Source: an uncultured Pelagibacteraceae bacterium
GTDB taxonomy: Bacteria; Pseudomonadota; Alphaproteobacteria; Pelagibacterales; Pelagibacteraceae
Direction: 5' to 3'
Assembly (NCBI GenBank): GCA_902587095.1
Contig: CACIJY010000001.1
Coordinates: 124,001-188,000 of the forward strand
Length of the DNA: 64,000 nt
The position numbers and the translations under genes were made by a program. The notes under the pieces are model-generated. The model did no database searches. It was not told where the DNA came from and was given only the letters and a program-made list of their open reading frames with translations. Below, piece by piece: positions 46,485 through 51,890 of the stretch. Position 1 is the stretch's first letter, and the number at the start of each line of letters is the position of its first letter.

Positions 46485-47270
46485 ATGAGTTTGATGAAAG
46501 GTAAAAAAGGATTGATCATGGGTGTTGCTAACGAACGATCAATTGCTTGGGGGATTTCTCAAAAACTTGCAGAAGCAGGAGCAGAACTTGCATTTACCTA
46601 TTTAGGTGATGCGCTAAAGAAAAGAGTTGTTCCTTTAGCAGGAAAATTAAATTCAAATGTTACTTTTAGTTGTGATGTTGAGAAAAAAGAGGAAGTAATA
46701 AAATTATTTGAAGATATAAAATCTAAATGGGGAGAAATAGATTTTGTAGTTCACGCAATTGCATTTTCAGATAAATCCGAATTATCAGGTGAATATCTAA
46801 ATACAACTAGAGAAAACTTTTTAAGAAGCATGTTGATTTCTTGTTTCTCATTTACAGAAGTTGCAAAAGAAGCATCTAAAATTATGAAACAAGGTGGAAG
46901 TATGATTACCTTAAGTTATGAAGCTAATAAAGCTATTCCAAATTATAATGTGATGGGTGTATGTAAAGCTGCACTTGAAGCAAGTGTTAAATATCTTGCA
47001 AGAGACTTAGGTTCAAAAGGTATAAGAATTAATGCAATTAGTGCAGGTCCAATCAAAACTTTAGCAGCATCAGCAATTGGAGATGCAAAATTTTTATATA
47101 AATGGAACGCTGATCATTCCTTTCTGAAAAGAAACGTTGATAATCTTGATGTTGGAAATTCTGCTTTATATCTACTAAGCGATATGGCTGGTGGTGTTAC
47201 AGGTGAGATACATTATGTTGATGCTGGTTATAATAAGGTAGGAATGCCAGATCCAAAAAATATTACTTAG
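46485..47270 (+). CDS. fabI: Enoyl-ACP reductase (NADH)
   Basis: Final reductive step of each fatty-acid elongation cycle. The 261-residue SDR-like protein has the FabI-type nucleotide loop MGVANERSIAWGIS near residue 12 and the active-site Tyr and Lys in YNVMGVCKAALEA (Tyr-6 residues-Lys). It follows fabB by 2 nt. Presence of FabI implies the triclosan-target type of reductase rather than FabK or FabV. Confidence 0.97.
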   Translation: MSLMKGKKGLIMGVANERSIAWGISQKLAEAGAELAFTYLGDALKKRVVPLAGKLNSNVTFSCDVEKKEEVIKLFEDIKSKWGEIDFVVHAIAFSDKSELSGEYLNTTRENFLRSMLISCFSFTEVAKEASKIMKQGGSMITLSYEANKAIPNYNVMGVCKAALEASVKYLARDLGSKGIRINAISAGPIKTLAASAIGDAKFLYKWNADHSFLKRNVDNLDVGNSALYLLSDMAGGVTGEIHYVDAGYNKVGMPDPKNIT

Positions 47271-47284
47271 ATCTTTAAAAAAAG

Positions 47285-49258
47285 ATGAAGCTCAATTATC
47301 GTCCAGAAATAGATGGTCTTCGAGCAATTGCAGTTTTAGCTGTAATATTTTATCATTCACAAGTATCAATTTTAGGTCATCAACCCTTCAAGGGTGGGTT
47401 TATTGGTGTTGATATTTTTTTTGTAATATCAGGTTATCTTATCACTTCTATAATTTTAATTGAATTAATTAGAACTGACTCATTTTCTTTTAAATATTTT
47501 TATGAGAGAAGAATCAGGCGTTTATTACCAGCTTTAATAACAGTTATGTTATTTACATTACCGTTTGCGTGGATTTATTTATTTCCAATAAACTTTGTAG
47601 ATTTTTCGAAATCTATTCTTTTTTCCTTAGGATTTTCCTCAAATTTATATTTTCATTTTTCTGGACAAGAGTATGGAGCTCAGAGTGGATTGTTAAAACC
47701 CTTCCTTCATACTTGGTCTTTATCAGTTGAAGAACAATTTTATATTCTATTTCCAATAATTTTGATGTTCTCATTTAAATATTTTAAGAAATATATATTC
47801 TTTATATTTTTTTTTGGTTTTGTTATTAGTTTAATATTAGCTGATTGGAGTAGCAAACATTCTCAATCAATTGCTTTTTATTTTATTCACACTAGGATGT
47901 GGGAGTTATTATCAGGCTCAATGCTGGCATATATTGAAGTTAGCAGGGGATATAGATGTAAAAATAAAACGTTGAATTTAATACTCCCAAGTGTTGGTTT
48001 TTTATTAATTATATTATCAATTATTTTTTTTAAATTATATTTTCCACATCCATCTTTTCATACTTTGCCAGCAGTTTTGGGTGTTTGTTTAATAATATGG
48101 TTTTCAGATAATAGTGAACCAATCACTAAAATACTCTCAACAAAACTTTTTGTTGGGATCGGCCTGATTTCGTACTCTTTATATCTTTGGCATTATCCCG
48201 TATTTGCTTTTAACAAAATTACACAATTTACTCAGGGAAATATATTTAAGAGTTTTTTACTTTTTTTTTTTATTTTTGTAATGTCATATTTTTCTTATAA
48301 GTTTATAGAAAAACCATTTAGAAATAAAAAAAATAAATTTAGTATAATTACTGTTACACTTACATTATGTATTCTAATTTTATTAATTTTTAATTTTTAT
48401 ATAATAAAAGAAAAAGGGATCAGACATAATTTGGATATAAATATTCAATCGAAGTTAACTTTTGAATATTTAGAGAAAAATAATAGAATCTGTTTTAATA
48501 ATATAGATATTTGTAAATTCAATCCTAACAAAAAGCAAAAAGTGTTTTTGATAGGGGACTCACACTTAGCAAGCCTTTCTTACAATTTGAAGTCAAGATT
48601 AAATGATTATAATTTTATATCAATCACGTCTGAGGGATATTTTTATTTCAATGACAAAAATATAATACAAATTGATGCTAACTCAAAAAAAATTAATTTA
48701 GATTTTATTAAATTTAATGAAATTGTTGAAGAAGAATTATCCAAATCCCAAAATAACATTATAATATTTGGAGGTTCTACTTCACTGTATTTTTATAAGA
48801 AGAGGTATTTAGATAAATCACCTAGCTGGGGTATAGAGTATGTCGAAAAGAATAATTTGAAACGTAATGCAAGAGTCTTGGAAGAAATTTTTTATAATCA
48901 ATTAAAAAAAATAACAAAAAATAACATAGTAATTTTGGTTTACCCTATTCCCGAAATTGGAGATGACATATTTTTAAATATAAAAAATTTAAATTCAAGT
49001 GAATATAAATATAGCGATTACAGAATTATTAATTCGGAAATAATTAATTTTTTCGATAATATTAAAATGAGTAACTTGATTAAAATAAAACCCACTGAAA
49101 GATTATGTAATATAAAAAATAATTTATGTCCTGTTGTTGATAAAGATAATAATGAACTAATTTTTTCTGACCCGTGGCACCCATCTTTAAGAGGAGCGGA
49201 AATGATTAATGATTTAATAATTAACGAAATAAAAAAATCACAAGAATATTCTTTTTAA
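47285..49258 (+). CDS. OafA/YrhL-type acyltransferase with SGNH domain
   Basis: Membrane acyltransferase of 657 residues that O-acetylates a surface polysaccharide or lipid. The N-terminal acyltransferase-3 domain (residues 1 to about 370) starts YRPEIDGLRAIAVLAVI and has ten or so helices, with FYHSQ carrying the catalytic His and RMWELLSGSM. The C-terminal SGNH domain shows FLIGDSHLASL (block I) and DPWHPSLRGAE (block V Asp-His). It follows fabI by 14 nt; the pairing with fatty acid genes is probably positional. Confidence 0.92.
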   Translation: MKLNYRPEIDGLRAIAVLAVIFYHSQVSILGHQPFKGGFIGVDIFFVISGYLITSIILIELIRTDSFSFKYFYERRIRRLLPALITVMLFTLPFAWIYLFPINFVDFSKSILFSLGFSSNLYFHFSGQEYGAQSGLLKPFLHTWSLSVEEQFYILFPIILMFSFKYFKKYIFFIFFFGFVISLILADWSSKHSQSIAFYFIHTRMWELLSGSMLAYIEVSRGYRCKNKTLNLILPSVGFLLIILSIIFFKLYFPHPSFHTLPAVLGVCLIIWFSDNSEPITKILSTKLFVGIGLISYSLYLWHYPVFAFNKITQFTQGNIFKSFLLFFFIFVMSYFSYKFIEKPFRNKKNKFSIITVTLTLCILILLIFNFYIIKEKGIRHNLDINIQSKLTFEYLEKNNRICFNNIDICKFNPNKKQKVFLIGDSHLASLSYNLKSRLNDYNFISITSEGYFYFNDKNIIQIDANSKKINLDFIKFNEIVEEELSKSQNNIIIFGGSTSLYFYKKRYLDKSPSWGIEYVEKNNLKRNARVLEEIFYNQLKKITKNNIVILVYPIPEIGDDIFLNIKNLNSSEYKYSDYRIINSEIINFFDNIKMSNLIKIKPTERLCNIKNNLCPVVDKDNNELIFSDPWHPSLRGAEMINDLIINEIKKSQEYSF

Positions 49259-49277
49259 GATCCAAAAGATTATTTTA

Positions 49278-49302
49278 GGGGCGTTCTGTTGCCAGGTGCC
49301 CC
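49278..49302 (-). terminator. GC-rich hairpin with GNRA loop, likely 3' end of the 63-aa gene
   Basis: On the minus strand: GGGGC, AC, CTG, GCAA, CAG, AAC, GCCCC. This gives a 5-bp stem, a small internal loop, a 3-bp stem and a GCAA (GNRA) tetraloop, followed by TAAAATAATCTTTT. About 63% GC in the local 38 nt stands out strongly. It may terminate the 63-aa gene, or be a structured RNA element of its own. The downstream T-run is imperfect. Confidence 0.5.
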
Positions 49303-49318
49303 CATACCCCAATCTTAA

Positions 49319-49510
49319 TTAAATGTTTTTAGGCTCTTTTTTTAAATGCCCAACAACTTTTCCAGAGTTTTTTCCAGATTTAATAACGTATCCGCTTGTG
49401 CCATTGCCATTAGCTTCAACAGATTTTAAATTTCGGAACATTAATTGATTTAGCCTAGCGATCTTTGAGCCTCGGCTAAACGAATTAAGAACTCTGTGCA
49501 TTCTTTTCAT
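49319..49510 (-). CDS. Unrecognised 63-aa basic protein
   Basis: I do not recognise this gene. The chosen ATG (MKRMHRVLNSFSRGSK) has AAGGAG 5 nt upstream, a strong site; the GTG used by the track (65 aa) would abut the SD and is unlikely. The protein is basic with no membrane helix; the central segment VEANGNGTSGYVIKSGKNSG is glycine- and asparagine-rich. Upstream are two tandem palindromes, downstream a GC-rich hairpin, so it forms a compact minus-strand transcription unit between the acyltransferase and the pnp region. Confidence 0.65.
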   Translation of the reverse strand: MKRMHRVLNSFSRGSKIARLNQLMFRNLKSVEANGNGTSGYVIKSGKNSGKVVGHLKKEPKNI

Positions 49511-49547
49511 ACACACTCCTTGTTAGTTTTTCCAAAACTCGCTTTTA

Positions 49548-49588
49548 ACCGATGCGATATCGGTCTCTTTATCACCATGAGATATGGT
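49548..49588. repeat. Two tandem palindromes upstream of the 63-aa gene
   Basis: ACCGAT-GCGAT-ATCGGT (49548-49564) and ACCAT-GAGAT-ATGGT (49574-49588) share arms and a 5-nt GNGAT spacer and are centred 25 bp apart. They may be tandem operators for one dimeric regulator or two leader hairpins of the 63-aa gene mRNA, whose ATG is about 40 nt downstream. Confidence 0.5.
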
Positions 49589-49817: not shown

Positions 49818-51890
49818 TTAGACAGCTGCTTGTTTTATAGATAGTTTAACTTTACCTCTATCAAAACCTATGACTTTTACTTTTACTTCATCTCCTTCTT
49901 TGACAACATCAGTAACTTTAGCAACTCTTTTGTCAGCTAGTTCTGATATGTGCACAAGTCCATCTTGTTTGCCTAAGAAATTAACAAATGCACCAAACTC
50001 CATAATTTTCATAACTTTGCCGTTATAAATTTTGTTAAGTTCAGCTTTAGCTGTTAAGTCTTTAATCATTTGCATTGCTTTATTTCTTGAGTCTTCATCT
50101 GGTGCCGCAACTGTTACTTCACCTTCGTCATTTACATCAACTTTAGCACCTGATTTTTCAACAATCTCTCTAATCGTTGCACCACCTTTTCCAATAACTG
50201 TAGCTATATCTTTCTTCTCTACAGTGATTTTTTCCATTTTTGGAGTATGTTTTCCCACATCATCTCTTGATTTAGATAATGCTTTATTCATCTCATTAAG
50301 GATATGTACTCTACCATCTTTAGCTTGTTTTAAAGCTTGCTCCATAATTTCAAATGTAATTCCTGTTATTTTTATATCCATTTGCAAAGAAGTAATTCCG
50401 TCTTTTGTACCAGCAACTTTAAAATCCATATCACCCAAATGATCCTCGTCGCCTAAGATATCTGATAGAACACTAAAATCGTCTCCCTCTTTAATTAGCC
50501 CCATTGCTATACCAGCAACTGGTTCTTTAATTGGTACACCTGCATCCATTAGCGCTAAAGATGAACCACAAACAGTAGCCATTGATGAAGAACCATTAGA
50601 CTCTGTGATTTCTGAAACTATTCTAAATGTATATGGGAAACTTTCTTTTGTAGGCAAAGATGAATTTATTGCCCTCCATGCTAACTTTCCATGACCTATT
50701 TCCCTTCTACCAGTTCCTATTCTACCAGTTTCTCCAACTGAGAAAGGTGGAAAGTTATAGTGCAACATGAACCTTTCACGTTGTAGACCCTCTAAACTCT
50801 CAATTCTTTGTTCATCATCAGATGTTCCTAGTGTTGTTGTAACAATTGCCTGTGTTTCTCCTCTGGTGAATAATGCCGATCCATGAACTCTTGGTAGTAT
50901 TCCAACTTCACATTTAATTGGTCTTACATCAGATAAACCTCTCCCATCAATACGATTTTTATTTTTTAATATGTCAGTTCTTACAATACCTTTCTCTAGA
51001 TTTTTCAATTCATGCATAACGTCTAACTCTGAGAAATTTTCATCCTCTTCGTATAACTTTTTAGCTTTTTCAGTTACATCAGATATTAGGTTTGATCTTT
51101 CTTGTTTATCTTTAATAGAAAACGCTTTTTTTAGATCTTTAGTAAATTCACCCTCTAATTTTTTCTTTACTTCTGATAAGTCCTTCTTTTCGACAACCCA
51201 ATTAGGTTTTTTACATTCTTTTGCAAGCTCCTCGATCATTTTTATAATTGGAACAAAGCCTTCATGACCGAATTTTACTGCATCTAGCATTTGTTGTTCT
51301 GTCAGACCCTTTGCTTCAGACTCAACCATTAAAACAGCATCTTTAGTTCCTGCTACAACTAAATCTAGTTTTGAATTTTCTAATTCTTTTTTAGTAGGAT
51401 TTAAAAGATATTTGCCACCTATAAAACCTACTCTAGATGCACCGACTGGTCCCATAAATGGCATGCCAGATATTGCTAGTGCTGCTGAAGATGCAATTAT
51501 GGATAAAATATCAGCTTCGTTTTCTTTATCATAAGATATTACTGTCGGTAATAATTGAACTTCATTTCTAAATTCATCTGGAAATAAAGGTCTGATAGGC
51601 CTATCAATTAATCTTGATATCAACGTTTCGCTTTCTGTAGGTCTAGCCTCTCTTTTAAAATATCCACCAGGAATTTTTCCAGCGGCGTAATATTTTTCTT
51701 GGTAATTAACTGACAAAGGAAAGTAATCTATATCAGGATTTACTTTTTTTGCCCCTACAACTGTTGCTAAAACAACTGTTTCACCACAAGTCGCAATAAT
51801 AGCTCCATCTGCTTGTCTTGCTATTTTTCCTGTCTCTAAACTAATTTTCTTTCCGGCAACTTCAACTTCTTTTTTAAAAATTTTAAACAT
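49818..51890 (-). CDS. pnp: Polyribonucleotide nucleotidyltransferase (PNPase)
   Basis: Phosphorolytic 3'-5' exoribonuclease of RNA decay. The 690-residue protein has two RNase PH domains (first starting [19 protein letters not shown]; second with [22 protein letters not shown] near residue 385 and the catalytic Asp region [16 protein letters not shown]), a KH domain with [12 protein letters not shown] and a C-terminal S1 domain ([22 protein letters not shown]). It follows rpsO by no gap, the classic rpsO-pnp pair. Confidence 0.98.

Follow-up and report, generated by a model that had tools for sequence, protein, structure and literature searches.

A SAR11 hairpin as a likely cassette attachment site copied from the end of ssrA, the permuted tmRNA gene

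A GC-rich hairpin in the genome of an uncultured Pelagibacteraceae (SAR11) bacterium is best explained as a copy of the 3' end of ssrA, the tmRNA gene, that serves integrative elements as attachment site; we assign this reading a probability of about 0.78. The hairpin lies at positions 49278-49302, minus strand, of the 64,000-bp stretch of DNA analysed here (the window, which starts at C1:124001 of genome G000). Integrative elements would take the last ~28-31 bp of ssrA as attachment core, and with each insertion the copy brought by the element would complete ssrA anew, while a further copy would come to lie at the element's other end. Tandem arrays of small, mostly integrase-less cassettes would result from repeated events, and the tyrosine integrase of rare full elements behind ssrA probably serves all sites in trans. 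Some cassettes, including a 63-aa gene with its site, would now reside at secondary loci, e.g., pnp-fabI, where the site would stay the breakpoint between conserved and variable DNA.

The minus strand from 49302 to 49278 reads GGGGCACCTGGCAACAGAACGCCCC, with G or C at 18 of 25 positions. It folds into a 5-bp G-C stem, an AC/AAC internal loop, a 3-bp stem and a GCAA loop; in the predicted fold of a longer stretch the outer stem grows to seven pairs. Sequence and predicted fold thus agree with the two stems, the internal loop and the GNRA tetraloop described in a first-pass annotation, which had also correctly located the hairpin behind a 63-aa gene: it follows the stop codon of a 65-codon frame on the minus strand (49319-49516). 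The folding by itself is only mildly unusual, with an energy of -19.4 kcal/mol for 69 nt, a z value of -2.05 and equally good folds in 7 of 200 shuffles. This low z value is the point in favour of a chance G-C-rich hairpin or an assembly artefact, an explanation of negligible probability that is refuted by recurrence. No match is expected in shuffles of the window, a second identical 25-mer is present in the same genome at a distance of 34 kb (C1:207088-207112), behind a 68-aa gene with a secreted-looking product, and copies were obtained from single-cell, metagenome-assembled and complete genomes as well as from phage contigs. The hosts are Pelagibacteraceae, mostly represented by single-cell genomes. 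Within the genus, 126 of 151 genomes carry the site, including 22 of the 22 near-complete ones; a reversed control pattern had 0 matches among the same 151 genomes. Conservation in relatives, proposed as a check in the first-pass annotation, was thus found. Because of its recurrence, as judged by the window shuffles, the second own copy and the genus-wide copies, the hairpin is real and not a product of chance. It is not a standard intrinsic terminator: neither strand has a T-run after the hairpin, and it was not returned by the terminator scan.

The window hairpin almost certainly derives from the permuted tmRNA gene of the Pelagibacteraceae (Rfam RF01849), as a copy of its 3' end at another place in the genome. 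The identical 25-mer terminates complete ssrA genes across the genus, where it comes immediately after the tag frame (ANESYALAA, ANDKFALAA) of this permuted gene; this identity was read directly from the sequences. The Rfam model alpha_tmRNA spans the 25-mer as its 3' end, with 223-230 bits in six complete genes checked, and RF01849 matches were present in 52 of 61 relatives. At the window site a partial match to the tail only was obtained (49274-49350, minus strand, equal to G000:C1:173274-173350; 33.7 bits, E 1.4e-8), which includes GGGGTATG before the core and falls under the RF01849 gathering score of 50. The tmRNA body is absent at this place, which does not count as an alpha_tmRNA gene, and a complete ssrA was not found in the own genome, which is 69 % complete. 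An independent RNA family was rejected as well: the Rfam scan of the whole window returned tRNAs only and no tmRNA, and the sequence is the alpha_tmRNA tail. A second family of the order, f2, has GGGAGGCACCGGGCAACAGAAGTCTCCC as its ssrA end, with the same loop and a stem partly altered on both sides. Where family f1 has G-C as third stem pair, f2 and the Rfam consensus have A-U. The inner stem does not conserve its T/A pair, which is unpaired in 6 of 10 sequences. The suggestion of a conserved RNA motif therefore stands as regards conservation, the GNRA-type loop and some covariation; the RNA concerned is the tmRNA 3' end, however, and the window holds the tail alone. At its place in the window the hairpin behaves as a DNA recombination site and not as an RNA element. 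Annotating ssrA-tail hairpins of this type as terminators or novel RNAs would be misleading.

An integrated virus was considered as source of the sequence and rejected. Eight viral contigs with the 25-mer resemble T4-like marine phages (L136-L143 group), and in two of them (L140, L143) the frame before the site ends tag-like (...NADENLALAA). These copies are probably ends of phage tmRNA genes and not attachment sites; marine phages encode a two-piece tmRNA (PMC9004378).

The site very probably works, or worked, as a cassette border. Exact insertion was observed directly in a comparison of an empty ssrA locus (L239) with an occupied one (L238). The flanks matched over 1171 bp (96.0 % identity) and 881 bp (95.3 %), the two matches overlapped by 31 bp spanning the core, and the insert in L238 comprised 4556 bp; downstream, both loci reached the same tRNA gene. 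Here the insertion is located exactly at the ssrA 3' end with the core duplicated, at ssrA and not at the window copy, which may be active. Many genomes have one to five extra copies away from the ssrA end: in the loci examined, 232 distinct sites were counted, 115 at ssrA and 117 elsewhere. The array structure is equally a matter of observation. Neighbouring sites at most 6 kb apart were on the same strand in 77 of 77 pairs, with a median spacing of 709 bp (range 124-4620 bp) and one or few cargo genes in between; the longest arrays had six sites (L251, L259). Among units having a frame of at least 60 aa, the largest frame was oriented against ssrA in 48 of 70 and with ssrA in 22 of 70. Cassette exchange was seen as well: in 18 groups, a shared cassette start has left neighbours of more than one kind, although the neighbour classes were assigned by simple text matching and are in part only roughly labelled. 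The start TTGTTAAAGGATTCCC, for example, was found behind the 63-aa gene and behind another frame. The latter we take for rnhA. In isolated copies, positions 10-24 (GCAACAGAACGCCCC, the right part) are almost invariant, whereas positions 0-8 are lost. This pattern fits an exchange close to the middle of the core, with only the right part needed to rebuild ssrA; the strand exchange would occur near GGCAAC. Direct repeats were present near 14 of 23 cassette ends, compared to 14 % in shuffles.

The cargo is mostly of no known family, as a comparison of 95 cargo proteins with Pfam revealed. Named cargo comprised restriction-modification functions (Tsp45I, DpnI, Mrr, N6/N4 methylases) and the polysaccharide lyase, rhodanese and trypsin families; no integrase was among the 25 of 47 Pfam families listed for the 95 cassette proteins scanned.

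In the window, the site is the terminal part of a 312-bp cassette at pnp-fabI, which is a second array locus. This block (49277-49588, minus strand) contains the 63-aa gene and the site, and blastn retrieved it from three further loci, L267 (97.4 %), L277 (86.3 %) and L280 (81.2 %); the DNA before the block differs between the window and these loci. The gene (63/65 aa, MKRMHRVLNSFSRG..., 49319-49516, minus strand) has no Pfam match. In L222 the 63-aa gene forms the first cassette after ssrA, in the order ssrA-site-63aa-site. The gene at 49818-51890 on the minus strand, presumably pnp as named from homology, is one boundary of the array locus, and the site directly follows it in L148, L186 and G023. 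The far boundary of the variable interval is a fabI-type enoyl-ACP reductase gene (46485-47270, plus strand), located directly behind the site in G093. Between these boundaries the content varies: pnp-site-fabI in L148, pnp-site-121aa-site-fabI in L186, 63aa-site-fabI in G093, 63aa-site-superoxide dismutase-fabI in G016 and G032, with a further 264-aa gene in G035, and 63aa-site-acyltransferase-fabI in the window. The acyltransferase gene (AT3 and SGNH domains; 47285-49258, plus strand) abuts the window site as variable cargo; its family is distributed patchily in the genus, with 37 of 300 genomes. The window and the sister genome G093 are ~100 % identical through the 300 bp that end with the final base of the hairpin, and there is no similarity beyond. 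One observation counts against the preferred reading: the acyltransferase gene has a single flanking site, with 14 bp lacking a site between the gene and fabI, so that a two-ended cassette is unsupported for this gene. In G016 and G035 a rhodanese gene separates pnp from the 63-aa gene; it was found as a cassette between two sites in L163:1743-2111.

A tyrosine integrase adjoins the site in two genomes, as was seen directly. In G270, a 343-aa phage-type tyrosine integrase starts ~70 bp behind ssrA and the site, followed by small frames, a 733-aa protein matching phage DNA primases and then a second site. G348 has the order ssrA-site-integrase again, with an integrase 52 % identical to that of G270. 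The other 16 integrase homologues, of at most 34 % identity, had no site in their loci of ~2-4 kb; most integrases of the genus are at other loci, with no site in the stretches read, and were dismissed as candidates. Close relatives of the G270 integrase were present in 2 of 399 genomes, while cassettes are common, and no integrase was found in the own genome (69 % complete); both points, like the missing complete ssrA, count against the preferred reading, and excised circles were not seen. No relative of the G270 integrase was confirmed in the viral contigs. The link to the cassettes comes from the ends. A weight matrix built from 23 cassette ends, G270 excluded, gave 22.6 bits for the far end of the G270 element, compared to 16.8 bits for the best of 133,140 background windows. 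Matching ends tie the integrase-less cassettes to the G270 integrase, which on these sequence grounds is the candidate for their movement; that an integrase of this type acts in trans seems rather likely.

A second group of phage-type integrases of the genus was observed beside an apparent phosphoribosyltransferase-type gene, without an ssrA-type site (L316, L319, L324, L335), in two cases alongside type I restriction-like genes.

It is doubtful that the hairpin was copied from ssrA and retained for a role as RNA element itself, i.e., as a 3'-end or stability hairpin of transcripts of the 63-aa gene or the convergent acyltransferase gene. Such a role would suit the position of the sites 2-20 bp after stop codons, often between convergent genes, and distant homologues of the 63-aa gene bear a T-tailed G-C hairpin at the same place. 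Yet the lack of a T-run and of a hit in the terminator scan speaks against it, and the tandem arrays, the exact insertion, the cassette exchange and the decayed left stem arms would be left unexplained. Dispersal by homologous recombination between existing copies, with no site-specific recombinase at work today, is decidedly improbable. Copies identical over 25 bp and loci with one site only, such as the window, would agree with it, but an identity of 25-31 bp is short for this type of recombination, an insertion of 4.6 kb is bounded exactly by the core, and an integrase is located at the site in two genomes.

The family's single core Xer-type recombinase, acting on the sites in the manner of Xer/dif-exploiting elements, is an unlikely actor as well. 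It is the sole tyrosine recombinase found in most of these genomes and most cassettes carry no recombinase. Immediately upstream of its gene, however, stands a separate dif-like inverted repeat that does not resemble the ssrA core, and the gene is located near the inferred terminus of G012, whereas ssrA is not. The best match to the core near the Xer gene has 12-16 mismatches of 25. The ssrA locus as terminus or dif site was rejected, since the cumulative skew of G012, calculated from 20 samples, has its maximum near 620 kb and ssrA is at 956 kb. The Xer-type recombinase gene of G012 is near the skew maximum. In 19 of 19 loci (L100-L114, L289-L292) the inverted repeat ATTACTAATGATAA-TTAATT-GTTATCAATAGTAAT or a variant, e.g., in L114, stands directly before the start codon of this gene (317 aa). 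Gene and repeat together resemble an Xer/dif unit with one recombinase, whereas family f2 possesses a normal XerC and XerD.

SAR11 bacteria have streamlined genomes, in which mobile elements are considered to be scarce. We found no description of ssrA-tail cassette arrays in SAR11 in the open-access literature, with subscription papers and preprints sparsely covered; while tmRNA-targeting islands are known, integrase-less cassette arrays in SAR11 appear to be undescribed. Genomic islands with tyrosine integrases at tmRNA or tRNA genes are well known (Islander, PMC4383910), and Pseudomonas islands behind tmRNA carry IntY (PMC12595487). In contrast to such islands, the SAR11 units are mostly 0.1-4.6 kb in size and integrase-less, form tandems of up to six sites and also occupy non-ssrA loci, in a streamlined host with a permuted ssrA. 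With integrons they share arrays of one- or few-gene cassettes with a single site each and the same orientation, an anchor at one end and shuffling between genomes; the tandem one-gene cassettes on one strand in 77 of 77 pairs represent this layout. They differ in the core, an ssrA tail and no attC, in a phage-type integrase within its own element and in the many cargo genes facing the anchor. Against the integron integrase model TIGR02249 scores of 41.2 and 49.3 bits were obtained, a weak similarity at a cut-off of 265. The attC R/L box has the consensus GTTRRRY, and by inspection it is absent from the 25-mer and its complement. An earlier search for attC sites in SAR11 hypervariable regions found none (PMC2217521). 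The G270 element, with its phage-type integrase and primase-like protein and with ends shared by integrase-less cargo units, resembles phage satellites and tycheposons, but it has a size of ~6.2 kb and no capsid or packaging genes were recognised. Tycheposons are to our knowledge associated with tRNA genes of Prochlorococcus, not with tmRNA in SAR11. The integrase-less tandem units at a host site also resemble Xer/dif-exploiting elements; the SAR11 site, though, is the ssrA tail and not the dif-like repeat beside the Xer gene of the family.

We give even odds to an integron-like gene capture in SAR11 with the tmRNA gene end as anchor, in which rare integrase-bearing elements would act for a large common pool of one-gene cassettes lacking an integrase, arrayed behind ssrA and at further loci, pnp-fabI among them. 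If true, the capture system would be a main path by which one of the most abundant bacterial groups gains and loses cassettes. With a searchable 25-bp landmark marking cassette borders genus-wide, single-cell genomes and long reads allow a direct count of cassettes gained and lost, and a named integrase is now open to testing.

Among the shortest cassettes, some units of 124-245 bp (L259, L122, L173, L250 etc.) had a single tiny frame with a start codon and an apparent ribosome-binding stretch; these frames possibly code for microproteins. A near-identical signal peptide of the type MKKLLGIVVLGLLLSGNAYA was present in many unrelated cassette proteins (L036, L171, L203, L213, L251 and others).
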